Source: a virus
Reading direction: 5' to 3' (one strand)
DNA length: 28,835 nt
Virus record (IMG/VR): IMGVR_UViG_3300032245_001238
Span: 1-28,835 of that record
How positions within the stretch are numbered: the stretch's first letter is position 1; every line of letters starts with the position of its first letter. This document shows positions 2,757 to 26,664 of the stretch, in pieces. The notes beneath the pieces were generated by a model that ran no database searches, was not told the DNA's origin, and saw only the letters and a list, made by a program, of their open reading frames with translations. Position numbers and translations under genes: made by a program.

Positions 2757-2789
2757 AAAGGGTGGACATTTATTTGTTCACCCTTTTTT
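2757..2789 (+). terminator. Rho-independent terminator, near copy of the one at 2314
   Basis: Stem AAAGGGTGGAC (2757-2767) with GTTCACCCTTT (2776-2786), loop ATTTATTT identical to the upstream terminator, then a T6 run. One base pair has changed in both strands relative to the first copy (G-C to A-T), so the structure is conserved by covariation. Confidence 0.88.
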
Positions 2790-2797
2790 GTTTTGCG

Positions 2798-2805
2798 AGT
2801 AAATA
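2798..2805 (+). promoter_or_regulatory. Late promoter box AGTAAATA
   Basis: The TAAATA core ends exactly 5 nt before the ATG at 2811, right after the terminator of the previous cassette. It predicts a leaderless late mRNA. Confidence 0.55.
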
Positions 2806-2810
2806 GTAAT

Positions 2811-3272
2811 ATGCACACATATTGTATTACCACGCTGGTGGACATCACGGAGAACGGAGTACTACGCAGTCAATTCCCATTCAAAACCAAGAGTGGAGAA
2901 CTGGTGCATGACTCTGCCACTCTTGCCATTGCTCGTAATCAACAGGCCAATTTTACCACACTGTTACAATTACTACAGATGAGAAGTAACATTGATTGGG
3001 AATCCACTCCCAAGAAACAGATGGATAATATAGTGAACTGGCGTTTTGGATCTGTGTTCGAAGGTCGTCATACCATATGGCAGTTCGAATGGCAGGTGGA
3101 ACAATCAGAAGTGTATGCTTTTGATAGTGATCCTGTGGGCGGATTGATAGAAGATTTTGATCAGATACCCATAATAAATTTTTGCAAAGAAACAGCCGCA
3201 TTTCCTAAGAATGTTTTTAACACACAAGACCCACGTTATATAAACACCTACTTTACGAAAATAACGGTTTAG
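2811..3272 (+). CDS. Conserved-looking late protein of unknown function
   Basis: A 153-residue protein starting MHTYCITTLVDITENGVLRS. The ATG at 2811 is preferred over upstream alternatives because the late box TAAATA sits 5 nt before it. It is globular, rich in aromatic residues (FEWQVEQSEVYAF) and mildly acidic, with no signal peptide, membrane helix or metal motif. It sits between the terminated structural cassettes and a membrane-anchored coiled-coil protein. I do not recognise the family. Confidence 0.75.
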   Translation: MHTYCITTLVDITENGVLRSQFPFKTKSGELVHDSATLAIARNQQANFTTLLQLLQMRSNIDWESTPKKQMDNIVNWRFGSVFEGRHTIWQFEWQVEQSEVYAFDSDPVGGLIEDFDQIPIINFCKETAAFPKNVFNTQDPRYINTYFTKITV

Positions 3273-3280
3273 AATAAATA
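3273..3280 (+). promoter_or_regulatory. Late promoter box AATAAATA
   Basis: AATAAATA just after the stop of the preceding gene, about 46 nt upstream of the ATG at 3327. The predicted leader carries an AGGAAG Shine-Dalgarno next to that start. Confidence 0.5.
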
Positions 3281-3326
3281 ATGTTACTCAAGGCACAAAC
3301 AGCACTAATAGGCTCCGCAGGAAGTA

Positions 3327-3629
3327 ATGGCAAATATACAGGCTCGGTTAAGAGAAATACGTACACAAGTAACGGAAATAAAACGAGAGTTGAGAATATT
3401 AATGAGTGATTTAGAAAAAACAAATTTAGAAGCACACGTGGACCTTTGCGCCGAGCGTTATAAAGGTTTACACGATCGTCTTTCTGCCATTGAAACCAGT
3501 CTTAAACGTCTAAGTGACGATGTGCTTGAAGGACAAAAGAGCCAGAGCAAAACTCTTATAATGACTGCTGGCACTGTGGTAGCAGGTTTACTCAGCACCA
3601 TAGTAGTGGTATTAATGAAAATCAGTTAA
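3327..3629 (+). CDS. Coiled-coil protein with C-terminal membrane anchor (XhlA-like architecture)
   Basis: A 100-residue protein. Residues 1-70 form a long amphipathic heptad-type helix (RLREIRTQVTEIKRELRILM, then SAIETSLKRLSDDV), followed by a single hydrophobic helix at about 77-97 and a short MKIS tail. This is the architecture of XhlA-like phage lysis accessory proteins and of some phage membrane proteins. The sequence match to XhlA is by layout only. It would sit in the host inner membrane with the coiled coil in the cytoplasm. The start is supported by the AGGAAG just upstream. No endolysin or spanin gene is adjacent, so a lysis role is tentative. Confidence 0.7.
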   Translation: MANIQARLREIRTQVTEIKRELRILMSDLEKTNLEAHVDLCAERYKGLHDRLSAIETSLKRLSDDVLEGQKSQSKTLIMTAGTVVAGLLSTIVVVLMKIS

Positions 3630-4704: not shown

Positions 4705-5556
4705 ATGAAAGCAACAGAATTAACAAAAAACATCACCACAGAAGGCTTACTAGCTCAATTTGAATCACGATTTGGTCAGACTATGAACCTACAAGGTCTT
4801 CCGGTAGAACAATTAGAAGATATGGCAAACATGGTTAGAACTAAAATTCATGAGATTACAAACAATCAACATTTTGGACAAGAATTAAAAGATGACAATT
4901 ATCACAAACATCAAATGATGTTAGACATATTAAATCAAGCAGTGAAAGAAGCACAAGGTATCAATACAATGATATCTCCTCAGCAACAAGCTATTGCTAA
5001 AAAGATTCAAACTGTTCCAGGTCTTAAACCACAAGACAAAGATCAAATTATTGGAGCAATGGTACAGAAAGAAACTGCAGTTAAAGAAGGCATCGAAAAT
5101 CAATCAGAATTAATTCTAGCTGCCAAAGACATGATGGACAAAGTGACAGCATTCTTAGAAGATTTAGCAAAAATGAAAACTGAAAGTATGTTAGAATTAT
5201 CTGACAGAATTAGAGATGAAATGGGAGCAGACAAAGCAGATGCTTTCATACAAAAAGTTAAACCAGCTCTAGAGTCTGCAGAACAAACACTGACTTCTAC
5301 AAGAACAGAATTAGATCAAGCAGTAAGAATATTAACTGGTGAAGAGATTGCAGCAACTGAACCAATGGGATCGTTAGATGAGCCATTAGATACTGCAGGC
5401 GATGAATTAGATTCTTTAGAAGCACCAGCTTCAGATGAATTTGCAGCAACAGATGCTAATGCAGGCGGCACAGAACCAGAAGGTAGACAGAAGAGAGAAA
5501 GCCGTGAAGTTTTCGAAGCCAGCAACAGAATTTATTCAAGACTAGCTGGGAAGTAA
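4705..5556 (+). CDS. Helical, Gln/Glu-rich probable virion-associated protein
   Basis: A 283-residue protein starting MKATELTKNITTEGLLAQFE. Residues 1-210 are almost entirely helical with coiled-coil character (EQLEDMANMVRTKIHEITNN; ESAEQTLTSTRTELDQAVRI). They are followed by an acidic, Pro/Ala-rich disordered stretch (about 215-262) and a short basic helical tail (REVFEASNRIYSRLAGK). There are no Cys and no membrane segment. This resembles internal or scaffold-type head proteins of T4-like marine phages in style, without a specific match. It is followed 4 nt later by another helical protein that may be a partner. Confidence 0.7.
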   Translation: MKATELTKNITTEGLLAQFESRFGQTMNLQGLPVEQLEDMANMVRTKIHEITNNQHFGQELKDDNYHKHQMMLDILNQAVKEAQGINTMISPQQQAIAKKIQTVPGLKPQDKDQIIGAMVQKETAVKEGIENQSELILAAKDMMDKVTAFLEDLAKMKTESMLELSDRIRDEMGADKADAFIQKVKPALESAEQTLTSTRTELDQAVRILTGEEIAATEPMGSLDEPLDTAGDELDSLEAPASDEFAATDANAGGTEPEGRQKRESREVFEASNRIYSRLAGK

Positions 5557-5560
5557 TCCC

Positions 5561-5920
5561 ATGCGTTTCTCTGAGTTTCTCAACAATACTAATAATGAAT
5601 TAGAGTCGGTGATTGTTAATACTCTACAAAATCTTAGAGGCGATGCTGATGAGCAAGGAGAAACAGCAGAGATTAGTTTCGATGCTCTACAACAAATAAT
5701 TAAAAACACAGGTTATGCTACTTTCAACTACAATCTATTTAAAAGTATCTATGACAAAGGCACTGCTCTAAAGAATGTTGTGGATGATTTTAACCAAGAA
5801 AAAATTGTTCTCAAAACAGAGAAACAGGCAGAAAAAGATCCTGCAATGAACAAAGACAATATTGGCAGTACAGATACTGTAAAAAAGATGGCTAAAGCAG
5901 CCATGAAAAGAAGAAGTTAA
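5561..5920 (+). CDS. Small helical hypothetical protein
   Basis: A 119-residue protein starting MRFSEFLNNTNNELESVIVN, 4 nt after the preceding gene. The N-terminal two thirds could form a small globular helical domain. The C-terminal third is Lys-rich and probably disordered (EKQAEKDPAMNKD; KKMAKAAMKRRS). It ends by overlapping the convergent radical SAM gene by 4 nt. No motif is recognised. Co-location suggests it works with the large helical protein just upstream. Confidence 0.7.
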   Translation: MRFSEFLNNTNNELESVIVNTLQNLRGDADEQGETAEISFDALQQIIKNTGYATFNYNLFKSIYDKGTALKNVVDDFNQEKIVLKTEKQAEKDPAMNKDNIGSTDTVKKMAKAAMKRRS

Positions 5921-7227
5921 ACTTTATCCAACCACTCGGCAATCGTAGGAAATGTTTTTTTATAATCAGTTCCTCTTCTACGATCTAATTCTGTTAGATA
6001 AATTTTAAATTGTTTTTGTCTAAATAGATCAGGTTGTCTGTTTTCAAATTCGTTCATTATACCATTCATATAATTTTTATGATTAAGTTTAACAGAATCA
6101 GGATATCCATGACTATTAACATCAAAAAGATCCACAGCTTCTTTTAAACCAATGTCGTTAATTTTCCTACCAAATATACCCGGATATAGATATGGTCTTG
6201 GTCCAAAATTATGTGTACTGGCTTTCATCATAGACCAATAAACCGGTCTAATTTTTGACCATTTGTTTATATTTTTTACAAGCTCTGGCATGCCTGGCAC
6301 AGCAGTTGCAGTCAATGCAGAATTAATATTTTGTAGAGTATTAGATTCATTTAATATGTATTCAAAGTTTTTTTGAAATAACTTTAAATCTAATCCATTC
6401 CTAACATATTCTGCTTCAGCACCCCACGAATCAAGAGATCCTATGATCTGTAATTTGTCTAATCTTTTTTCTTGCACAAGACGATTTAATCTTTGTACCC
6501 AATTTTTAACTCTTTCATGATCCACAGTTAAATTACTAAAGAAACATAGAGTAAGATCTGGTAATTCTTTTTGTTCTAAAAAAGCAATCATTCTTTCTGT
6601 TTCTTTTTGTATGAAAGGCTCTCCTCCTAAAATAATTAATTTGTGTAAATGATGTATATTTTTTTCAAACCAAAGAAATAATTTCTCTGTAGCTTCTTCA
6701 ATGCGTGTAAAATTTGCAAATTCTCTGTTCCATTTTGCATCCATAACTACACCTTCTGTATTAAATGGTCCAAATCGTTTTTCCTCTTGATGTATTTTTG
6801 AACTAAAAATTTGACTACAATATATACATTTTAAATTACAAGTGTTTCCCCAGTATACTTCTAATATTCGAGGAGTAAGTTCAACTGCATCTAAATTATG
6901 CTCTAATTCTGGAGGTGCAGTGGTACCTTCCATATTAAGATGTATAGTTCTATCACTAGCTCCTCCAGCTTGTTCTATATGTTTACAATGTTCACAACCA
7001 TTACCGGGCCACTCTCCCTTCAACATCTTTTTTCTTTCCTCAATCTTGTTAGGTATGTTATGAAAACCCAATACTTCTCCGCTTAGATCTAAAGGTCCAT
7101 ATCCTGCTCTATGACAACTAGCAGTATATCCGTCTGTAAGATAAACTGTGGAATGTGTCCATTTGAGTTGGCAAGCTATGCCTTTTTTTACAGGAAAAAT
7201 TTTAGGAGGTTGTTGAGATATTCCCAT
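5917..7227 (-). CDS. Twitch-domain radical SAM enzyme
   Basis: A 436-residue protein from the ATG at 7227; a TTG six codons earlier is possible. The chosen start overlaps the stop of the upstream gene as TAATG, a coupling arrangement. The radical SAM 4Fe-4S motif is CNLKCIYC (Cys 130, 134, 137), and LGGEPF (about 200-205) supplies the SAM-binding GGE. An N-terminal cysteine-bearing part (Cys 19, 38, 78, 81, as SCHRAGYG and GCEHC) precedes the barrel and looks like the twitch-type auxiliary cluster of phage radical SAM proteins that carry it N-terminally. The substrate is unknown. It is AT-rich relative to the flanking structural genes and pairs with a second radical SAM gene, suggesting a two-enzyme modification step on a shared substrate. 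Confidence 0.88.
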   Translation of the reverse strand: MGISQQPPKIFPVKKGIACQLKWTHSTVYLTDGYTASCHRAGYGPLDLSGEVLGFHNIPNKIEERKKMLKGEWPGNGCEHCKHIEQAGGASDRTIHLNMEGTTAPPELEHNLDAVELTPRILEVYWGNTCNLKCIYCSQIFSSKIHQEEKRFGPFNTEGVVMDAKWNREFANFTRIEEATEKLFLWFEKNIHHLHKLIILGGEPFIQKETERMIAFLEQKELPDLTLCFFSNLTVDHERVKNWVQRLNRLVQEKRLDKLQIIGSLDSWGAEAEYVRNGLDLKLFQKNFEYILNESNTLQNINSALTATAVPGMPELVKNINKWSKIRPVYWSMMKASTHNFGPRPYLYPGIFGRKINDIGLKEAVDLFDVNSHGYPDSVKLNHKNYMNGIMNEFENRQPDLFRQKQFKIYLTELDRRRGTDYKKTFPTIAEWLDKV

Positions 7228-8240
7228 TAGTTTACTCCACAACAATGATAACAGGCATTTAATCTTACATCAGTATTGGTGCCATTTATACCTTGTTCTA
7301 ATTTACGAAAAAAAGATCCTTTTAATATTTCATCTAGTGATGTTTTATTTAAATTTATTTTATCATAATCGTTTATTAATTTTTGTGATTCGTGTGTTTT
7401 TGGATCACCTATCCAACAGCAAGGAGTAACATAACCAGAGGCTAATAGATATATTTCAAATTTATTATTAGAACACGACACACAAGATATTTTTCTTGTT
7501 GCAAAATCATTTACTATCTCATTTGGAAGAATTTTTTTATTAATTTTTTCTACAACAGTAGTAAGTTTTTTTTCGAATGACGGTTTTTCGATATAATAAT
7601 CATCCACTTGAATTTTATCAACATCTCTAAAGGTACCATCATAATCATAATCTTTCCATCTGGATGTAAAATCTAAATGAAAATTTTTAAATCCCATACT
7701 TTTTGCTAAATCTTTTGCTTCTGTTGATTGTTGCTGATTATGTTTAAAAGAGAACATTCTCCATCCAGCTTTGCCACCAGCTGCTATAAAAGCTCGAGCA
7801 TTTGCCATGAGCTTGTCCCATTTAACATTCCTTCTGTAGAGATGATTAGTATCCTCTAAGCCATCGATATGAAAAAGGACCTCAACTCTTAACTTTGCTA
7901 ATTCTGCCCAAAACTCTGGTGTTCTAGCACCGCCGTTAGTAAAAAGTTCCAACTGACATGTACTATTGTTTTGTCTAAGATGTTCATATATCTCTAGGCA
8001 TTCTGGATTCATAGAACCATCACCATATGTGCCACAAGAATAAAAACGATTTAATCTTTTTATGATGTTCAATCCAATTTTATCTTTTATTAAATCCAGT
8101 GATGTGTGAGAGTTATTGGTAACATCTTTTCTCAGCTCTAATTTAAAATTAAATCTAGAACACATAGGACAGGCAGCATTACAGTAGTTAGACAGCTCTG
8201 CATTGATACTGTTAATATTATCGATTGTGATATATGACAT
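7227..8240 (-). CDS. Radical SAM enzyme with Cys-rich SPASM-like C-terminus
   Basis: A 337-residue protein starting MSYITIDNINSINAELSNYC. The radical SAM motif CNAACPMC has Cys at 20, 24 and 27, and YGDGSMNPE stands where many families have GGEP. C-terminal cysteines (ISCVSC; TPCCWIGD; ACYHCCGVN) fit a SPASM/twitch auxiliary Fe-S region, as in peptide- or protein-modifying radical SAM enzymes. The stop codon overlaps the start of the second radical SAM gene (TAATG), so the two are translationally coupled. The gene is divergent from the PD-(D/E)XK nuclease with only 14 nt between starts. What it modifies is not evident; no obvious precursor peptide is adjacent. Confidence 0.85.
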   Translation of the reverse strand: MSYITIDNINSINAELSNYCNAACPMCSRFNFKLELRKDVTNNSHTSLDLIKDKIGLNIIKRLNRFYSCGTYGDGSMNPECLEIYEHLRQNNSTCQLELFTNGGARTPEFWAELAKLRVEVLFHIDGLEDTNHLYRRNVKWDKLMANARAFIAAGGKAGWRMFSFKHNQQQSTEAKDLAKSMGFKNFHLDFTSRWKDYDYDGTFRDVDKIQVDDYYIEKPSFEKKLTTVVEKINKKILPNEIVNDFATRKISCVSCSNNKFEIYLLASGYVTPCCWIGDPKTHESQKLINDYDKINLNKTSLDEILKGSFFRKLEQGINGTNTDVRLNACYHCCGVN

Positions 8241-8998: not shown

Positions 8999-10588
8999 GT
9001 GCCTATAGTACAGATTTCAAGGATCCAGCATAGAAGAGGCAAAGCCACGGACCTACCGCAATTAGCGGCTGGAGAGTTGGGTTGGGTTATTGACGAACAA
9101 AAATTATACATAGGTAATGGCACAGTAGCAGATGGTGCTCCTGCAGTGGGTAACACAGAGATTTTAACATCAGGTTCTTCAGCATTTTCATCAGCTCTAA
9201 AATATGTTTACAAAGGATATCTAGGAGATGCCACACCAATAGTAACCGGAGCAGGTGTAGACATTCTAAGAACTCTACAAGAGAGACTGGATGACTACGT
9301 TTCTGTTAAAGCATTTGGTGCTGTGGGCGATGGAGCTACCGATGATACAGCAGCTATACAAAGAGCCCTAGAAGAATTATATTCAGACATAGTGGATCAA
9401 GACGACACAAGATCATCAAGAATATTATTTTTTCCAGCAGGCACTTACAATATATCCGCATCTCTAAAAATACCTCCTTATGCTCGATTAGCAGGAGAAG
9501 GTATTGACGGATCGGTGATATATCAATCAGGTGGCAATGCACCAGTAGCTGTAACAGAAGACAATGGAGGCAATGTTTATGGCAACATAGGTGCCTCATC
9601 AGCCGCAACACCCACACAAATCTTTATAGAAGGAATTCAATTTTGGAATGGAGAAGCCTATGCAGGTTTTAGCATAGACTGTGCAACCAATATAAGATTT
9701 GTAAACTGTGGATTCAAAGGTACGTATGCAGCAGGTGGAGCAGATAATTCTAACAGTCGAGCTGTCACTGTGAGAAGTACATCGGTATTACCTTGCAGCA
9801 ATATAATTTTTGACAGCTGTCAATTCACTAAATTTTCTAGATTAGTAGATTTAAGTTATGATATAACTTCAATAAAATTTATTAATTGTGATTTTTCAAT
9901 AGCTGTATATGGAGCCTATGTAGGCGAAACCACAGATGGTTCAACCAATGGATTACAAAATGGTCCAAGTAACGTACAATTTTTATACAGTACCTGGAGC
10001 AATATAGGTAGAAATGCAATCAAAATTGTTGCAGGAGGAACCATAAGAAATATTGTTAGTGTGGGCAACTGGTTTGGCAGTGATATTGGAAATAATTTCA
10101 GTGATTATAACACTACCAATAATACATATCCAGAGATTGATTTTGGCACCGATGAATGCTCTAGCCAATTTGATTATTTTGCAAAAACAGATTTAAGATC
10201 TTCATCTATTGCGCCAGCAACGAATGTGGATGGTATTGGTATAATAGACCGTCCAATCAAACAGATTACATTGGCTGACAATACAGGATCTGCCACAACC
10301 ACAGGAATAAGAATTAAAGCCACCAGTGGTTCTGCTCTATCAGTAAAATATAAAATTGAGAGAGGATCTAATTTCCGAACAGGCACGCTGACAGTGATTG
10401 GCCGAGAAGGCACCACGCCCACCTACAATGATGACTACGAAGAGACTGCTGATATAGGAGTAACTCTGTCTGTTACCACAGATGATCTTGATTCCACAGC
10501 AGGCAATGAAACATTTGTAGTAAAATATACCACTACCAGCACAGGCTCATCGGCCACAATGGATTATCAAACTACAATAATTGCATAA
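8999..10588 (+). CDS. Tail spike / fiber with pectate-lyase-type beta helix
   Basis: A 529-residue protein with a GTG start supported by AAGGAG 10 nt upstream. Residues 1-50 (RIQHRRGKATDLPQLAAGEL, then KLYIGNG) match the N-terminal virion-attachment module seen in many phage fiber proteins. At about 98-130 a sequence VKAFGAVGDGATDDTAAIQ is the hallmark start of the pectate-lyase-3 / right-handed beta helix fold of tail spikes. It continues with FFPAGTYN and many short Gly/Asn turns. The last ~120 residues form a Thr/Ser-rich beta domain that may trimerise or bind receptor. It probably recognises or degrades host surface polysaccharide; catalytic residues cannot be assigned by eye. Confidence 0.88.
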   Translation: MPIVQISRIQHRRGKATDLPQLAAGELGWVIDEQKLYIGNGTVADGAPAVGNTEILTSGSSAFSSALKYVYKGYLGDATPIVTGAGVDILRTLQERLDDYVSVKAFGAVGDGATDDTAAIQRALEELYSDIVDQDDTRSSRILFFPAGTYNISASLKIPPYARLAGEGIDGSVIYQSGGNAPVAVTEDNGGNVYGNIGASSAATPTQIFIEGIQFWNGEAYAGFSIDCATNIRFVNCGFKGTYAAGGADNSNSRAVTVRSTSVLPCSNIIFDSCQFTKFSRLVDLSYDITSIKFINCDFSIAVYGAYVGETTDGSTNGLQNGPSNVQFLYSTWSNIGRNAIKIVAGGTIRNIVSVGNWFGSDIGNNFSDYNTTNNTYPEIDFGTDECSSQFDYFAKTDLRSSSIAPATNVDGIGIIDRPIKQITLADNTGSATTTGIRIKATSGSALSVKYKIERGSNFRTGTLTVIGREGTTPTYNDDYEETADIGVTLSVTTDDLDSTAGNETFVVKYTTTSTGSSATMDYQTTIIA

Positions 10589-16244: not shown

Positions 16245-17402
16245 TTATTTTTCTAGGAAATAAGGCCTAGATAAATTACCTTTGACACCTCTAAGAATGT
16301 CATTGGGGTTATTTTTCCAATAACCATTAGCACTTTTTGTCAATACTTCGTCTAACTTTTTTAATCCTGCAAGATAATTTCTAGCAGAACTATTCCATGA
16401 TATGGTTTTAAAAAACCAACGATCACGTTCACTGAAAATTGTATTTTTAGGTTTCCCTACACTAAAAGTTTTTATATCCCAATCTTCATATAATAATCTA
16501 TTAATTCCATTAGGTAAAAGATAAAAAGTTTTTCCTTCTCTAATGGTCATACCATAATAGTATTTTTGATTATACTCGGTGAAATCTAACGGATTTATTT
16601 CTGCAAATTTTAAATATTTCATTATAATATGTGATTGTTTTATAATGCCTTTTGTAAAATCTGTACTCCAATAAAATAATTCATCAAACTCTCCAGGAGA
16701 AGAAAACTGTTGTAGATAAGGAGATACTGAATTATCAATTAAATCCTGAAAACGAACACAATATTTGCCATTAATATAATGTAATCTTGGTTTTTCTGCA
16801 CCCCAAATAAAACAAACAGACTTACCTTCATCTATTAATTTTTTATATTCTGGTATTAATCTTCGAAGATGACTTCTCACATAATTGTTTGGGCTAAAAT
16901 TAGAATTCATAAAATAAATCCAATTAAACAATATATCTTTTTCACTAAAAACTTGATTCGTTATCTCGCTTAAATCTATTAATCTATGTTTAATATAAGA
17001 TAATTCTTTCATACGAGGTATGGCTACTCTAGATATTTCTGCACTAAAATGACTATCATATGATTTGTCGCCTTCATAAGCCCAAAAACTGGCTACTTCG
17101 TCTAATTTAATATTATTTTTAACAAAAACATCAAGTATGTTTGACGAATCAGATCCACCACTAAAGAACAATACTAGATAGTCATACTTGTCTCTTATCT
17201 GTTGTGCTCTATTTCTATAAAGTTCGTTTAAACTTTCAGCGGGTTCTTTGCTCCAATCATAACAAGAAAATTCTGCAGAATTAAATTCCCACTCTGGATG
17301 TATACCTGTACGATCATGTAACTCAATAGCTTCTAATTTACTGTAAGTCTTTTTATCCCCAATCTTGTAATAGCCAAACTTATCTATATTATTTTCTATC
17401 AT
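16245..17402 (-). CDS. PP-loop ATP pyrophosphatase-like enzyme (asparagine-synthase/alpha-hydrolase fold)
   Basis: About 385 residues from the ATG at 17402, which overlaps the stop of the upstream DUF2061 gene by 14 nt. ATGs at 17414, 17441 and 17459 would give up to 404 residues with a 71-nt overlap. The PP-loop is LFFSGGSDSSNIL, about 80 residues in from the preferred start, the SGGxDS signature that binds ATP in N-type ATP pyrophosphatases (asparagine synthase, GMP synthase, QueC, ThiI, PAPS reductase relatives). The flanking FGYYKIGDKKTYSKLEAIE is distinctive. No glutaminase domain is present. It would adenylate a carboxylate, carbonyl or sulfur-accepting substrate in the cytoplasm; the substrate is unknown. 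It is AT-rich and on the minus strand. Confidence 0.8.
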   Translation of the reverse strand: MIENNIDKFGYYKIGDKKTYSKLEAIELHDRTGIHPEWEFNSAEFSCYDWSKEPAESLNELYRNRAQQIRDKYDYLVLFFSGGSDSSNILDVFVKNNIKLDEVASFWAYEGDKSYDSHFSAEISRVAIPRMKELSYIKHRLIDLSEITNQVFSEKDILFNWIYFMNSNFSPNNYVRSHLRRLIPEYKKLIDEGKSVCFIWGAEKPRLHYINGKYCVRFQDLIDNSVSPYLQQFSSPGEFDELFYWSTDFTKGIIKQSHIIMKYLKFAEINPLDFTEYNQKYYYGMTIREGKTFYLLPNGINRLLYEDWDIKTFSVGKPKNTIFSERDRWFFKTISWNSSARNYLAGLKKLDEVLTKSANGYWKNNPNDILRGVKGNLSRPYFLEK

Positions 17403-17838
17403 ATCTTTTACCATAGGAGATTTTATTCCAAACTCTCTCATGCAAATAATATATTGCAATGTTGATTATTGTGGCCAATCCTAAAAACACTAAAGCCTGC
17501 CCAAAAGAACCTGTAGTAAAATATGGAATTAAAACATTACTCATTGTAATCAATATTCTCCAAGTTAAAGATTTACCTATACTTCTAAAGATGCCCTCAA
17601 TGAATAATAGAATTTTGTTATACTTTCTGTTCCACTGACTCTTATTCCAAAATCTTTCGTGGAAATAATAAAGTCCACTGTTTATGAATAATGCTGTGCC
17701 GGCTATTTTAAATCCTGTAGACCATGTTCCTGAAATTATAAAACCATTTAAAATATGGCTTAGAGTGAACAGTATTCTTATGGTTAGTGTTTTAAGTAAT
17801 GACCTACTATGATATTCATTATATTTTTCTAAAAACAT
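17389..17838 (-). CDS. Membrane protein with two DUF2061 repeats
   Basis: A 149-residue protein with two copies of the same unit: residues about 13-67 (SLLKTLTIRILFTLSHIL ... YYFHERFWNK) and 87-141 (SIGKSLTWRILITMSNVL ... YYLHERVWNK). Each unit has two hydrophobic helices and ends in the HERxWNK motif typical of DUF2061, giving about four membrane segments. The usual family member has one unit. DUF2061 is known fused to or near APS kinase in bacteria, which links it loosely to sulfate assimilation; its biochemical role is not established. It has a good ribosome binding site (AAGGAAAT) and its end overlaps the PP-loop gene, so the two are coupled. Confidence 0.85.
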   Translation of the reverse strand: MFLEKYNEYHSRSLLKTLTIRILFTLSHILNGFIISGTWSTGFKIAGTALFINSGLYYFHERFWNKSQWNRKYNKILLFIEGIFRSIGKSLTWRILITMSNVLIPYFTTGSFGQALVFLGLATIINIAIYYLHERVWNKISYGKRYDRK

Positions 17839-20397: not shown

Positions 20398-21180
20398 ATG
20401 CTACGAATCATCACACTTATATTTGCATTGGTAATTTCTAATGCTGCATGGGCAAATCCTATCGATGACAAGTGTCCACAACATGTGCTATTGGGAGCAC
20501 CTGTATCTAAAATAAAGAAAGACACTCAATATCTATGCAAAATCAATTATGCCATTCACTACAGATACGATACCAAGACAGCAGAGTATGTGGTAGAGCA
20601 TGTGACCATAGAAGGCACCACAGGCACATCCAAACGCAAAGATGACTTTCGACCAGATCCTGCCATACCCGCACAGCATCAAAGCACACTGAAAGATTAT
20701 GCAGGCAATCCCTATGACCGAGGACATCTTGCTCCAGCAGGCAACAACACACAGAATGAAGAAGTAATGAGTGAGAGTTTCTTCCTATCCAACATGGTTC
20801 CACAGGTGCCCAATCACAACAGAGGCATATGGAAACAGTTGGAAACATTTGTGAGAGATTGGGTGGTAGACCATGGTATGGATCTATATGTGATCAGTGG
20901 CACGGCCTACAACAAAGAATACAAAACCATAGGTGAAGGTCGAGTGGGAGTGCCTGATACTCTATGGAAAGTGATAGTGGATCGTAAAGAAGGCAAAGCC
21001 ATTGCTTTCGTATTTCCCAACACAGCTCTACCTGTGGAAGATCTTCCTAAATATGCTACCACAGTAGAAGCAGTGGAAAAAATTACAGGTATAAACTTTA
21101 TGCCTAAGTTACCTAAAGAAAAAGCCAAAATAGAAAAGACCAAACCTGATCTAAGCAAATGGCCAAAATTGTCAAACTAA
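20398..21180 (+). CDS. Secreted DNA/RNA non-specific endonuclease (NUC1 / beta-beta-alpha-Me)
   Basis: A 260-residue protein. The N-terminus MLRIITLIFALVISNAAWA is a Sec signal peptide with an AxA-type cleavage site near residue 19, so the mature enzyme is periplasmic or extracellular. The catalytic signature YDRGHLAPAGN gives general base H110; N141 and E149 (HNRGIWKQLE) complete the Mg site, with spacing like Serratia nuclease (H-30/31-N-8-E). The end is a Lys/Pro-rich tail. It would degrade DNA and RNA without sequence preference. It is transcribed late from its own promoter with no Shine-Dalgarno. Export protects the phage genome inside the cell; possible uses are nucleotide recovery, clearing lysate DNA or excluding rival phages. 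Confidence 0.9.
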   Translation: MLRIITLIFALVISNAAWANPIDDKCPQHVLLGAPVSKIKKDTQYLCKINYAIHYRYDTKTAEYVVEHVTIEGTTGTSKRKDDFRPDPAIPAQHQSTLKDYAGNPYDRGHLAPAGNNTQNEEVMSESFFLSNMVPQVPNHNRGIWKQLETFVRDWVVDHGMDLYVISGTAYNKEYKTIGEGRVGVPDTLWKVIVDRKEGKAIAFVFPNTALPVEDLPKYATTVEAVEKITGINFMPKLPKEKAKIEKTKPDLSKWPKLSN

Positions 21181-21182
21181 TA

Positions 21183-21210
21183 TTGACATTTACAAAAAAT
21201 AAACTATAAT
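21183..21210 (+). promoter_or_regulatory. Sigma70-type promoter
   Basis: -35 TTGACA (21183-21188), 16-nt spacer, -10 TATAAT (21205-21210), both perfect consensus. It is 6 nt upstream of the deacetylase ATG, so the transcript would have almost no leader. Confidence 0.8.
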
Positions 21211-21216
21211 ACAAGT

Positions 21217-22263
21217 ATGAGAACGCTATTATTATTGTTATTTTTTGCAATTAATAACGTTGCTCTATCTTTAGAACCTCATCAAGAACCTGGTGTGATT
21301 GGATTGATGTATCACAAGTTCGACGAGAACCGATATCCCACAACGAACGTTAAAGTTAAAGAATTTGAAAAGCAGATCCAAATGATTCGTAAGATGAATC
21401 TAGACTTTATCTCTATAGAAGAGTTTGATGACTACATGCACGGACACAGAGAACTGTACAATAAAAGAGTGCTATTAACTGTGGATGACGCATGGGCTAG
21501 TTTCTATAAAAATGCTTGGCCTATATTAAAAAGAGAAGGCATACCTTTCGTGCTGTTCATCAACACCAGAGAGATCAATTCTAAGAATCGTAATTACATG
21601 ACCTGGGCACAGATACGAGAAATACATGCGTCAGGGTTGGGAGTGATAGGACACCACTCTTACAGCCATGACTACATGGTAGGGTGGGACTCTGATAATA
21701 TACGCAAAGACTTAGAGAGAGCGTCGCAGGATTTCATGAGAGAGTTAGGTTCTATACCCGAATACTTCTCATACCCATTTGGAGAGTACAGCTTAGAATT
21801 TAAAGAACTGGTTAAAGATATGGGATTCAGATTGGCATTTGGACAGCATTCAGGAGTAGTAGATAGTCGTAAAGATCGATTTGAGCTGCCACGATTCCCT
21901 ATCAATGAGAATTGGGGCAAAGCAGATCGATTTGAAATGGTGTTGAACACACTGCCCATGCCCTACAAAGAGTTTTTACCTGCAGATAAAAAAGTATCAG
22001 AATTCAAAAATCCTCCACAATTAGAGATAGAGTTTGTGCCAGGATTAAGGAATCTTAAGAATATAGTGTGTACCACCAACGATGGAGACAGCTGGCCCAC
22101 TGTACCTATTAGATTCATGTCAGAAAATAGAATAGTCATAGAACCTCTAAATCCTTATAAAGTAAGAACTGCTAGAATCAATTGCAGTTTTGCTGACAGT
22201 GCCAAAAAATATCGTTGGCTGGGCATACAGTTTGTGTTGCCACACATACCATCCGACAAGTAA
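21217..22263 (+). CDS. Secreted polysaccharide deacetylase (NodB homology domain)
   Basis: A 348-residue protein. The N-terminal hydrophobic stretch (MRTLLLLLFFAINNVALS) is a signal peptide. NodB motifs are LLTVDDAW (D90, D91; motif 1, normally TFDDG), GHHSYSH (H147xxxH151; metal ligands, motif 2), SYPFGEYS (motif 3) and LPRFPIN (motif 4). A C-terminal ~100-residue beta-rich part has two Cys (INNIVCTT-like NIVCTTND and RINCSFAD) that could form a disulfide. It would remove N- or O-acetyl groups from a cell-envelope polysaccharide in the periplasm. A strong sigma70 promoter suggests early expression, so a role in altering the host envelope during infection, rather than in lysis, is plausible. 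Confidence 0.87.
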   Translation: MRTLLLLLFFAINNVALSLEPHQEPGVIGLMYHKFDENRYPTTNVKVKEFEKQIQMIRKMNLDFISIEEFDDYMHGHRELYNKRVLLTVDDAWASFYKNAWPILKREGIPFVLFINTREINSKNRNYMTWAQIREIHASGLGVIGHHSYSHDYMVGWDSDNIRKDLERASQDFMRELGSIPEYFSYPFGEYSLEFKELVKDMGFRLAFGQHSGVVDSRKDRFELPRFPINENWGKADRFEMVLNTLPMPYKEFLPADKKVSEFKNPPQLEIEFVPGLRNLKNIVCTTNDGDSWPTVPIRFMSENRIVIEPLNPYKVRTARINCSFADSAKKYRWLGIQFVLPHIPSDK

Positions 22264-22791: not shown

Positions 22792-22819
22792 TTGACAGAT
22801 AATCGTTATCTGTTATAAT
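22792..22819 (+). promoter_or_regulatory. Sigma70-type promoter with operator-like palindrome in the spacer
   Basis: -35 TTGACA (22792-22797), 16-nt spacer, -10 TATAAT (22814-22819). The spacer is almost entirely the inverted repeat CAGATAA-TCG-TTATCTG (22796-22812). The predicted 5' UTR of about 60 nt holds a second inverted repeat AATAAC-CGAT-GTTATT (22837-22852) and a Shine-Dalgarno (TAGGAG). Confidence 0.75.
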
Positions 22820-22885: not shown

Positions 22886-23974
22886 ATGCAAGACAATAAA
22901 ATAAAGACTTTAAGTCAAGTTGTAGAAGAATTCTACCGAGAAGGCGAAGAAGAGTTACCCAATTTTAAAACAAGATTAGCCACAGCTCGCGATAAATTAG
23001 ATCCTAATAAAAAATTGCCTGAAGGCATTAATAAAATTACCATAGATGATAATCTCTGTTTCAACTATTCTGTACAGCGAGATTTAAGACCCGCTCACGT
23101 GTTAAGGATCTGTGAAAAGTTCGATCCACGAGTGGTTCGTCCTGCATCGGCAGTAAAGAGAGACGGAAAATATTATCTATTTGATGGACAGCATACTTCT
23201 GTTGCTCTAGCAGTATTAGGATACAATGCAATACCATTAACATATGTAGAGACATTGGAACCATCGTTTGATGCTCTAGCATTTGAAATATTAAATGACA
23301 CAGGTATTTTAAGAGCTGGCACAGAAGAGATACACCGAGGATTATTACATCGATGGCATAATGACCCTACAGGAGAGAATGATAGGAATCAAGCTAGAGT
23401 TAAAATAGCATTTGCTGTGGATACTCTGTTTAAGAAATGTGCTATTGACTTAGAGCCTAAACGAGTTAGAAAATCGTCAGGCAAGTGTGGCCCTAATAAA
23501 CATTACTTCTCACATTTTGATTATGCTTATAAAGGATTAGAAATGATTGGAGATGTGGATGTGTTAGAAAAAATTCTATTAGGTATTAAAAAATACTATG
23601 GTGATGAAGACGGTGGAGAAATCAACCAAGGTCTTTACATAGGATTGGTTAAGATGTATGCTCTAGCCAAAGAAGATGGATCCACTAAGTTCTTACCACA
23701 AGACTGGGTAGATAGAATATTAGAAGCCACAATAAAAGTATGTGGAAGAAATGCCAACGGTATACACTCAGCAGCCAAGAAACAATGGCAACACACTCGA
23801 GGCACTTCTTGGGACGCACCTGTGGCTATGAGTACACTGATGAGAGAAATATATCTTGTACAAGCACCACAGCAAGATTTATTCAATCCACCACACGAAC
23901 CCAAAGTTTCTATGGGTATAATGACTGGTGACGTGTGTAGTGAATTTAGACCATACTTTAAAAAAGCAGCCTAA
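22886..23974 (+). CDS. ParB/sulfiredoxin-fold domain protein
   Basis: A 362-residue protein. At about 60-115, YSVQRDLRPAHVLRICEKFD, then DGKYYLFDGQHTSVALAVLG matches the ParB-like N-terminal nuclease fold: an xQR motif, a short helix, and DGQH (100-103) in place of the ParB GERR/DGxHR loop. The remaining 240 residues are a unique helical region with two Cys-containing stretches. Members of this fold act as partition CTPases, DNA nucleases or regulators. The classical CTP-binding GERRxRA box is not present. Start ATG with TAGGAG, 8 nt away. It overlaps the next gene by 1 nt (TAATG). Confidence 0.78.
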   Translation: MQDNKIKTLSQVVEEFYREGEEELPNFKTRLATARDKLDPNKKLPEGINKITIDDNLCFNYSVQRDLRPAHVLRICEKFDPRVVRPASAVKRDGKYYLFDGQHTSVALAVLGYNAIPLTYVETLEPSFDALAFEILNDTGILRAGTEEIHRGLLHRWHNDPTGENDRNQARVKIAFAVDTLFKKCAIDLEPKRVRKSSGKCGPNKHYFSHFDYAYKGLEMIGDVDVLEKILLGIKKYYGDEDGGEINQGLYIGLVKMYALAKEDGSTKFLPQDWVDRILEATIKVCGRNANGIHSAAKKQWQHTRGTSWDAPVAMSTLMREIYLVQAPQQDLFNPPHEPKVSMGIMTGDVCSEFRPYFKKAA

Positions 23975-24534
23975 TGCTGAAGAGATATCAGCAATTAGAT
24001 AACAAAGTAAGTGGCAGGTTACAATTTAAATCTGCCAACGATACTTCTGTAGAAACTGATTGTGAGATATTGGATCGTTTTAAAAATCAGTTATTGAGTG
24101 AAAATGTTTCTCGAGAAGCCAAAGGCAGATATTTTTATTTCTTACAAAGATTTTTAAGAGATACACAAAAAGATAGATGTAAGCCCAACGGTTCTCATTA
24201 TGCGGCAGTAGATATAGGAGATGTTAAAAAACATTTAGAACACCCAATACCACAGAATAAAATCCTAGCAGAGTATATGGAAGGCAATATATCAGCTCTA
24301 GAAGCCATACACATGCCACTGTGTGTTATTGCTGATTCTGATAAACATACTCTACAAGGAGAATGGGAGCAGAATGCCACGTGGACTCACCCATTTAAAA
24401 GATATCGATTGGCAGGATTTACCAAACAAATCAAAAATTTACGTGGAGAAGTTATAGATCCTAACACATGGACTATAGAGGATCATTTCCGAATGTTGGG
24501 CATTGACAATTTAATAAAAGACTATAAAATATAG
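23974..24534 (+). CDS. Hypothetical protein coupled to the ParB-like gene
   Basis: A 186-residue protein starting MLKRYQQLDNKVSGRLQFKS; its ATG overlaps the preceding stop (TAATG). Basic, with a helical N-terminal half (FKNQLLSENVSREAKGRYFY). The C-terminal half has His and Trp (EGEWEQNATWTH-like GEWEQNATWTHPFKRYRLAG). No family is recognised. The gene lies between the ParB-like and CTP-synthase-like genes in one operon (2-nt gap to the latter), so it may belong to the same function. Confidence 0.7.
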   Translation: MLKRYQQLDNKVSGRLQFKSANDTSVETDCEILDRFKNQLLSENVSREAKGRYFYFLQRFLRDTQKDRCKPNGSHYAAVDIGDVKKHLEHPIPQNKILAEYMEGNISALEAIHMPLCVIADSDKHTLQGEWEQNATWTHPFKRYRLAGFTKQIKNLRGEVIDPNTWTIEDHFRMLGIDNLIKDYKI

Positions 24535-24536
24535 AT

Positions 24537-25181
24537 ATGATTCACACAATCATATTGAATGGAGTGCATTCTGCAGTGGACAAAGTGGAATTAGCAAGAG
24601 CCATACAAACAGCATCCAAAGCACAAACAGATTACAAATATCTAGATCCCTGTCTAAATGTATCCAAGAAAGTCACAGCAGAATATAAAACTGTGGGACA
24701 CATCATTGCTGAAGTATTGGACAAAGAGCGAATGGGCGATTACAAAGGTGGCACAGTGCAGGTTACTCCTCACATCACAGAAGAAATTCGTAATTGGATT
24801 GTAAAAACTCGAGCAAAGAACACTGTCACAGTGATAGGTGGTAATGTGGGTGACTTAGAAAACCAATTAGCCATAGAAGCAGTGAGAGAGATGACACTGA
24901 AAGAAGATGTGAGAATTGTGTTGTATGTACCAGTACCATACCTAAAAGCCGCAGGAGAGATCAAAACCAAACCTGTGCAACACTCTGTAAAAGAATTAAT
25001 GCGTATGGGTATCATGCCCTATGCACTGTGCCTAAAGAGTGATATGGATCTACGAGATAATGAGATAAGAAAAATAGCCATGTTCACAGGTGTACCACAG
25101 GACAGAATAGCATGGCACACTAATGGCTTGGGCGAGTGTGGTAAGAAACTATCAAAATATATATACGGAAACAAGAAATGA
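24537..25181 (+). CDS. CTP-synthase synthetase-domain pseudoenzyme
   Basis: A 214-residue protein equivalent to roughly the first 230 residues of CTP synthase (PyrG). Shared blocks are DPCLNV (37-42, PyrG DPYINV), KERMGDYKGGTVQVTPHIT (63-81; PyrG KERRGDYLGATVQVIPHIT), GGNVGDLEN (101-109; GGTVGDIES) and GEIKTKPVQHSVKEL (140-154; the UTP/CTP-binding KTKPTQHSVKEL). Differences matter: the P-loop GGVVSSLGKG is NGVHSAVDKV (Lys kept, two Gly lost), the Mg-ligand segment TEDGAETD is deleted, E140 is V99, and the glutaminase domain is absent. It should bind UTP/CTP but not catalyse. It may join host CTP synthase tetramers or filaments, or sense CTP. The gene overlaps the next by 4 nt. Confidence 0.88.
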   Translation: MIHTIILNGVHSAVDKVELARAIQTASKAQTDYKYLDPCLNVSKKVTAEYKTVGHIIAEVLDKERMGDYKGGTVQVTPHITEEIRNWIVKTRAKNTVTVIGGNVGDLENQLAIEAVREMTLKEDVRIVLYVPVPYLKAAGEIKTKPVQHSVKELMRMGIMPYALCLKSDMDLRDNEIRKIAMFTGVPQDRIAWHTNGLGECGKKLSKYIYGNKK

Positions 25182-25387
25182 TTGTGCAATTAAATCCAGC
25201 TCTGCCGATATTGACTCCCAAAGGAGAAGCCTATGCTCATTTCTTAATTGATTATGGCATGGAAGAACATCTACTATGGGTATGCTTTATTAATGAGACT
25301 GGAGAGTGTTGGACATTTAGGAATCCACAAATAAGATTAAAACCTAACGAGACTTTTAATAGATTAAAAACGTCAGATATACAATGA
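25178..25387 (+). CDS. Small hypothetical protein
   Basis: A 69-residue, beta-prone protein MIVQLNPALPILTPKGEAYA containing DYGMEEHLLWVCFINETGE and a W-x-F-x-N-P motif. It is overlapped by 4 nt on each side (ATGA type) with the CTP-synthase-like gene and with the DNA ligase gene, so it is translated in a coupled chain. Conserved-looking, but no function is visible. Confidence 0.75.
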   Translation: MIVQLNPALPILTPKGEAYAHFLIDYGMEEHLLWVCFINETGECWTFRNPQIRLKPNETFNRLKTSDIQ

Positions 25388-26664
25388 AACCATACGAAAT
25401 TATAAAAGAATTAGAAAGCGATAACTCACGCAAATTCAAAGAGTCTGTGATTGCTCGTGAAGATAAAAACAATAATACAGAATTCTTTGAAGGTGTTAGT
25501 ATGGCCATGGATAAATTGAGAACATTTGGATTAAAACAAGTGCCGGAATCTCAACAGGATGGTCCAGGATTAGAATGGGACACATTTTTAGAAATCACTA
25601 ATCAATTAGAACTTAGAACATTAACCGGTAATGCAGCACGAGACAAAATTGATTATCTTGTAGGACTAGCTACTCAAGACGAGTGGAATCATTGGTATCG
25701 TAGAATACTAATCAAGGATCTAAGATGTGGAGTCACAGAAAAAACTGTGAATAAATTTAGTAAAATCAAAGTACCAGTGTTTGAATGTATGCTGGCCGAC
25801 GACAGCAAAAAGCACGAGAGCAAATTACGAGGACAGGTATTTGTAGAACCTAAACTGGATGGTGTAAGAGTTATAGCGATCTGTGACACAGAGAAAGATG
25901 AAGTGATTCTAATGAGTAGGAATGGCAAAGAGCTTGTAAATTTCCCTCATATCAATACTCAACTGTATCATTTATTGGGAGAATTAGATCGTAGTTGGGT
26001 ATTTGATGGAGAAATAATGAGTGCAGATTTTCAAAGCCTAATGAAACAGATACATAGAAAAGGTGATGCACAAACCGATGATGCGATATTAAATCTATTT
26101 GATTGTATGCCTTTGCATATATTTCAACAAGGTGAATGCACAGAGCCACTTACAAAAAGAAAAGAATGGTTAGAATCCTTTCAGTTTGGACCAAACATTC
26201 AAACGATTGAGAGTGTTCCGTTTGATCTAGACCGAGACTATGACCGGTTTATGAATTACAATCGATCATGCATAGACAAAGGGTATGAAGGCATCATGAT
26301 CAAACCACAAAACGGTGTGTATGAGTGTAAGAGATCCTCACTGTGGTTAAAAGTAAAACCTTTTATAGAAGTAAGTCTTAAGGTTGTAGATGTGGAAGAA
26401 GGCACAGGCAGAAATTCTGGCAAACTAGGAGCTCTTATTGTGGAAGGCACCGACGATGGCAAGTTTATTAGAACCAACGTGGGATCAGGATTAACTGATG
26501 AGGATCGTGAAACTTTTTGGAAAGACACACAAAAATTAATAGGACAAATAGTGGAAGTGAGAGCAGATGCCATTACACAGAACCAAGATGCTGTAGATGA
26601 GTATTCACTGCGTTTTCCACGATTCCTAAGATTTAGAGGATTTGAAAAGAATGAAAAACTTTAA
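25384..26664 (+). CDS. ATP-dependent DNA ligase
   Basis: A 426-residue nucleotidyl-transferase ligase. Motif I EPKLDGVR carries the AMP-accepting Lys157, motif III is SRNGKEL (178-184), motif IV FDGEIM (207-212), motif V EGIMIKP, and motif VI lies near the C-terminal LWLKVKP. An OB-fold region follows (KVVDVEEGTG ... TNVGSGLTDEDRE). The N-terminal ~140 residues are helical. It seals nicks in duplex DNA during replication and repair, equivalent in role to T4 gp30. It is coupled by a 4-nt overlap to the small gene upstream and overlaps the next by 14 nt. Confidence 0.93.
   Translation: MKPYEIIKELESDNSRKFKESVIAREDKNNNTEFFEGVSMAMDKLRTFGLKQVPESQQDGPGLEWDTFLEITNQLELRTLTGNAARDKIDYLVGLATQDEWNHWYRRILIKDLRCGVTEKTVNKFSKIKVPVFECMLADDSKKHESKLRGQVFVEPKLDGVRVIAICDTEKDEVILMSRNGKELVNFPHINTQLYHLLGELDRSWVFDGEIMSADFQSLMKQIHRKGDAQTDDAILNLFDCMPLHIFQQGECTEPLTKRKEWLESFQFGPNIQTIESVPFDLDRDYDRFMNYNRSCIDKGYEGIMIKPQNGVYECKRSSLWLKVKPFIEVSLKVVDVEEGTGRNSGKLGALIVEGTDDGKFIRTNVGSGLTDEDRETFWKDTQKLIGQIVEVRADAITQNQDAVDEYSLRFPRFLRFRGFEKNEKL

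Follow-up and report, generated by a model that had tools for sequence, protein, structure and literature searches.

A phage homologue of the CTP synthase synthase domain with a predicted UTP/CTP pocket and a degenerate ATP site

CTP synthase carries out the last step to CTP and is feedback-inhibited by this product, and the E. coli enzyme is switched off by the formation of filaments. What might a phage do with a gene that encodes the synthase domain of this enzyme and little of what is needed for catalysis? Such a gene is located at positions 24537–25181 of the viral DNA analyzed here, a stretch of 28,835 nucleotides that we call the window. A sequence-only reading had proposed a catalytically dead domain that keeps the CTP/UTP site and could co-assemble with the host enzyme to relieve or impose inhibition, and we followed up this proposal by computational analysis.

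The open reading frame (ORF; plus strand, ATG start, TGA stop) encodes 214 amino acids and its sole Pfam match is PF06418 (CTP_synth_N; E 7.9e-39, residues 48–193, 134 bits with a cut-off of 26). The closest solved structures in a PDB sequence search are CTP synthases (best E 4e-31), and the best phage-protein family is PHROG 28378 (E 1.2e-34), whose model of 547 positions is as long as a complete CTP synthase and is covered by the ORF at positions 89–235 only. An AlphaFold (AF2) model built with 24 relatives showed a mean pLDDT of 90.7 and a pTM of 0.88, all 50 PDB matches listed for it by Foldseek are CTP synthases, and superposition on the nucleotide-bound E. coli enzyme gave a TM-score of 0.89 over the query (E 4e-18). 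Family match and fold together establish, well above chance level, synthase-domain homology to CTP synthase (EC 6.3.4.2, PyrG), as had been proposed for this phage locus. The first 47 residues fall outside the Pfam match and were placed with the help of the fold, of profile–profile alignment and of relatives from an intermediate branch. A different P-loop amidoligase family was rejected, as there is no second Pfam match and the PDB matches listed are all CTP synthases. The ORF product stops after the synthase domain and has no glutaminase domain, also in agreement with the earlier proposal. A split enzyme with a separate glutaminase was considered and rejected too, since PF00117 has no match on any of 12 viral contigs, the window among them, all of which are fragments, and the protein has lost its catalytic residues in any case.

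Table 1: Positions of the CTP synthase-like gene, its sequence elements and related features (window positions except for the second-branch loci; substitutions in E. coli numbering).
Feature	Position	Strand	Remarks
CTP synthase synthase domain, predicted pseudoenzyme, 214 aa, without glutaminase	24537..25181	+	PF06418, PDB, AF2, Foldseek
Degenerate P-loop NGVHSAVDKV, aa 8–17	24558..24587	+	G10>N, G17>D, G19>V; K18 kept; V13>H invariant in group
YLDP, aa 35–38	24639..24650	+	catalytic K40>Y; uracil-contacting D42 kept; roles from PMC8325340
9-residue bridge, aa 43–51	24663..24689	+	replaces E. coli residues 48–90
KERMGDYKGGTVQVTPH, aa 63–79	24723..24773	+	conserved core and L4 loop; R105>M, L109>K here
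VIGGNVGDLE, aa 99–108	24831..24860	+	E140>V, T144>N; UTP ribose contacts D147, E149 kept
EAVR, aa 114–117	24876..24887	+	E155 (CTP feedback) and R158 kept
KTKPVQH, aa 143–149	24963..24983	+	UTP/CTP triphosphate-binding motif K187–H193 kept; PMC8325340
K179	25071..25073	+	E. coli K223, kept; alignment
WH, aa 193–194	25113..25118	+	invariant in group; start of adenine-binding loop region (E. coli 237–241)
ATP-dependent DNA ligase	25384..26664	+	constant downstream neighbour in the window's group
Extended -10 sigma-70-type promoter	22792..22819	+	perfect consensus match; upstream of the gene run containing the ORF
Second-branch locus L036	3986–4696		glutaminase-less CTP synthase domain
Second-branch locus L037	3151–3873		glutaminase-less CTP synthase domain
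Second-branch locus L038	3666–4388		glutaminase-less CTP synthase domain

For the residue comparison the short forms were set against 67 full-length sequences, in which the ATP, Mg and catalytic residues K18, K40, D72, E140 and the P-loop glycines are conserved in 66–67 cases; from this set the ORF retains K18 alone. The losses named before could all be found again, namely two P-loop glycines (with a third substitution, G10>N, at the same loop), the segment carrying D72, and E140, which is Val. The comparison adds K40>Y, R211>K, a replaced adenine-loop region and the disappearance of the ammonia gate P54/H57/V60 from both branches of short forms. The bridge amounts to a net deletion of 34 residues that removes the Mg ligand D72 together with the gate, and a bridge of equal length sits at the same site in the second-branch loci L036–L038. 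In the window's branch G17, G19, K40, E140 and R211 are thus substituted and D72 is deleted, and K18 and G143 remain. Residue roles were taken from PMC8325340, which also describes the adenine contacts, PMC9138612 and PMC4126345.

The UTP/CTP site shows the opposite picture, with 12 of 13 residues kept in every member (S14, D42, Q114, D147, E149, E155, R158, K187, T188, K189, Q192 and K223), the exception being T144>N in the window's branch, and with E155 and R158 invariant in the short forms. R158, Q192 and K223 are our own assignments to this site, based on the E. coli structures. The E. coli variant E155K binds CTP poorly (PMC4126345). Retention at the UTP/CTP site differs from that at the ATP and catalytic positions (2 of 8; Fisher p 0.003) and equally from that at all other undeleted conserved positions (p 0.003), both values being a guide only, because R211 was added to the ATP list after the alignment and the positions are not independent. 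Five residues are newly invariant in the group (V13>H, K40>Y, Y44>C, S237>W and L238>H), which hints at a pocket reshaped for a separate function. By sequence, the UTP/CTP pocket is kept, and the ammonia channel is gone together with the site for ATP, Mg and catalysis. The ORF product belongs to the PF06418 superfamily by homology and yet is no CTP synthase, because the glutaminase domain, the catalytic residues and the ammonia gate are missing.

The ORF is under purifying selection and is constrained, not decaying: dN/dS is 0.04–0.13 for close pairs in the window's group and 0.02–0.05 for wider pairs, in which dS is saturated or nearly so, and 0.25 in the second branch (one pair). These values reject a pseudogene, and the retained nucleotide pocket falls under the same selection. 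Loss of catalytic residues in a fold under purifying selection, as seen from the AlphaFold model, the alignment and dN/dS, is a trait that the protein shares with regulatory, prozyme-like pseudoenzymes, and it would be a candidate for one that acts on host CTP synthase.

The search for other glutaminase-less homologues was productive, as the domain-only pattern is present on 17 viral contigs including the window and divides into two branches, with the losses of D72, G19 and K40 in both and with no complete ATP site in any of them. A scan of viral contigs gave nine close loci (82–92% identical, one truncated); L032, L033 and L034 (54–59%) came from a search pattern for the group-specific motif GGNVGD together with a wider scan, and L036, L037, L038 and the partial L055 are more distant (about 37%). 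The products of these seven more distant loci, all domain-only, measure 211–240 aa where complete. The second branch retains G17, K18, E140, G143 and R211 and is without G19, K40, D72 and the gate; with its better P-loop and E140 it looks like an intermediate state in the alignment, and its AlphaFold model (pLDDT 84) has the strand and helix order of the window's protein. The remaining viral matches (L039–L054) are full-length PyrG or cut by the contig end, and the pattern-scan loci L011, L013, L015–L017 and L021 were rejected as chance matches. A bacterial origin of the short form was rejected as well, as all 52 loci from a scan of bacterial and archaeal genome contigs have full PyrG length or are cut by the contig end. 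A tblastn search of annotated phages gave host-like full-length pyrG records and no short form, true matches in the BFVD structure library are full-length viral CTP synthases only, and no similar short form was among the matches listed for 284 genomes of one bacterial phylum, a set not aimed at the presumed host group. In the phylogenetic tree all short forms are located on one side of a branch with a support of 50 only, which allows a single origin.

Regarding the genomic context, the gene sits between a gene for an Hfq-like small protein and the DNA ligase gene in the window's group, and the ligase is present in all eight relatives that are not cut by the contig end. As this position is conserved in nine relatives and the adjoining ParB-like and HNH-like genes vary, the CTP synthase-like gene is a unit by itself; a functional unit with these neighbours was rejected, since they are absent, replaced or rearranged in the relatives. 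In the window a ParB-like/DUF6551 (DGQH) gene (22886–23974) and an HNH-like gene for 186 aa (23974–24534) form a pair upstream of the gene, which in L008 is split to both sides of it (4910–6004 and 6633–7193) and in L003 is absent; it is possibly a mobile endonuclease-type module. In L034 the gene overlaps the end of dnaK. The window also encodes nrdA and nrdB, and the uncultured phage is T4-like because these are nearest to those of the pelagiphages Mosig and HTVC008M and of cyanophages (63–70% identity), with a SAR11-type host being plausible. Near-perfect sigma-70-type promoter matches lie on the plus strand at 21183, 22792, 24503 and 28508, compared to 0.14 in shuffled sequence, and these four would fit what is expected for phage early promoters; the one at 22792 is a match to the consensus only, and at the equivalent place the strict pattern found no promoter in close relatives.

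Several other genes of the window may be mentioned. The minus strand at 5917–8240 encodes a neighbouring pair of radical SAM proteins that overlap slightly; one of the two contains a SPASM domain. The product of 8999–10588 starts with a domain of the Mtd_N type (major tropism determinant), has a pectate-lyase-like fold and is likely a receptor-binding or tail protein. The product of 16245–17459 (minus strand, 404 aa, no Pfam match) carries the PP-loop-like motif LVLFFSGGSDSSN and is possibly an ATP-pyrophosphatase-type enzyme. A predicted DNA/RNA non-specific endonuclease (20398–21180) and a predicted polysaccharide deacetylase (21217–22263) both begin with a signal-peptide-like start, and between the two L003 has an AMP-ligase/methyltransferase-like fusion of 694 aa (678–2762) and a dioxygenase-like gene (2764–3438), which are missing in the window.

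How could a protein of this kind act? Active CTP synthase is a tetramer with its nucleotide site at the interface of synthase domains (PMC9138612, PMC5405848), and the L4 loop of PyrG reaches over and acts on the adjacent protomer (PMC9138612). We tentatively favour a model in which a dead, glutaminase-less synthase domain binds CTP/UTP, enters the host tetramer and most likely keeps the host CTP synthase active. The ORF product would bind CTP and/or UTP without converting either and, through its retained synthase-domain surfaces, would probably dock into the host tetramer, whose nucleotide site is shared by several protomers; we infer both the docking and the direction of the effect. A mixed tetramer missing at least one glutaminase/linker region would stack abnormally into the inhibited filament and show altered CTP feedback, and the host enzyme kept active would deliver CTP to the phage ribonucleotide reductase and to replication. 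That the protein acts as a phage 'prozyme', which from within the tetramer and with CTP/UTP bound blocks filament stacking and releases the host enzyme from inhibition by CTP during infection, is possible and is put forward with considerable doubt.

The favoured model is consistent with the exclusive match to the CTP synthase family and fold, with the unequal fate of the two sites, with the same net deletion in two branches under low dN/dS, with the conserved gene position, with an L4 loop that is largely retained in a protein without its own glutaminase and with the nrdA and nrdB genes of the phage. There are also precedents: mixed complexes of human CTPS1 and CTPS2 show changed activity and CTP feedback (PMC12442307), a CTP synthase mutated at the N-terminal residue 20 is dominant negative for filaments (PMC5405848), and in other systems enzymes are activated by their dead paralogues (PMC5201418, PMC3663545). 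The earlier idea that the synthase domain itself forms the filament interface was wrong, because the known contacts are found in the linker helix, through which CTP drives the filaments of E. coli (PMC4126345), or in the glutaminase domain of eukaryotes (PMC7619001, PMC9138612), both absent here. Thus, the earlier interpretation stands as far as a dead synthase-domain homologue with a kept pocket is concerned and falls with respect to the filament interface. At odds with the model are the group-specific invariants at the former ATP site, which point to another function, in addition to or in place of the one proposed.

These invariants (H11, Y35, C39, N103, W193 and H194 in the ORF product), together with the kept pocket, would also suit a free-standing protein that binds CTP/UTP as a homo-oligomer, responds in this way to the pyrimidine nucleotide pool and has a target in phage or host that is not CTP synthase. 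Such a sensor would fit a gene that adjoins a DNA ligase gene in the window's group and directly follows that of a T4-type DNA polymerase in the second branch (L036, L038); we consider it unlikely, as neither a partner nor a fused output domain can be seen and the neighbours vary between the branches.

Inhibition is the main rival to activation within the favoured model itself. In the window, the trans-acting L4 loop has M and K in place of R105 and L109, the residues that couple to the glutaminase of the adjacent protomer, and therefore uncoupling or inhibition is favoured over activation by this evidence; in E. coli, L109A loses much of the glutamine-dependent CTP formation and leaves ATP/UTP-dependent tetramer formation unchanged (PMC9138612). 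An inhibitor would block ammonia transfer or completion of the active site in the tetramer and lower CTP, for example in order to retune the UTP/CTP balance or to restrain host synthesis. Less CTP costs the phage too, however, and L109 remains Leu in L032–L034 and L036–L038, so that we regard this reading as distinctly unlikely.

An enzyme with altered chemistry, acting on UTP or CTP in the remodelled pocket, might be supported by the retained K18 and G143, by the invariant group-specific His, Cys, Tyr and Trp at the former ATP site and by G17, K18, R211 and E140 in the second branch. It appears improbable, since both branches are without G19, K40, D72 and the ammonia path and the window's branch has additionally lost G17, E140 and R211. 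A functionless, decaying remnant of full-length PyrG, as the short protein and its many losses might indicate, is very improbable indeed in view of dN/dS values of 0.02–0.13, a length and position conserved in many contigs and 87 invariant columns among ten members.

Viral and parasite pseudoenzymes are known kinds of proteins. To our knowledge no viral pseudoenzyme derived from CTP synthase is known, and the ORF product would be the first such regulator of CTP synthase. The favoured model of a dead domain in the host tetramer, if true, shows a viral route to retune the host pyrimidine supply by using a domain of CTP synthase itself, and provides a natural tool for studying the coupling of the CTP-binding site, the tetramer contacts and filament assembly. 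The two branches, one with a near-complete P-loop and E140, seem to record steps from an enzyme domain to a non-enzyme. As the sequence-only reading had supposed, searches of the open-licence literature found no description of a phage-encoded CTP synthase regulator; the nearest is gp64 of mycobacteriophage Giles, which is reported to contact the host CTP synthase in a yeast two-hybrid assay, with no biochemical confirmation there (PMC5705681), and which is likened to the ORF product as a phage protein in contact with host CTP synthase. Compared to PyrG, which joins the PF06418 synthase domain to a class I glutaminase, the ORF product has the synthase-domain fold and the UTP/CTP pocket in common and is without the glutaminase, the linker, G17, G19, K40, D72, E140, R211, the adenine loop and the ammonia gate, with a net loss of 34 residues. 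The human CTPS1/CTPS2 pair differs in that both partners are full-length active enzymes; co-assembly of the ORF product is a prediction from its retained surfaces. The trypanosomatid prozymes, dead paralogues of AdoMetDC and deoxyhypusine synthase (PMC5201418, PMC3663545), resemble it by analogy only, as dead relatives of an enzyme that are kept by selection; their folds are unrelated, and in their case the partner and the activation are proven, while the dead copy described here is viral and its partner is a predicted one.
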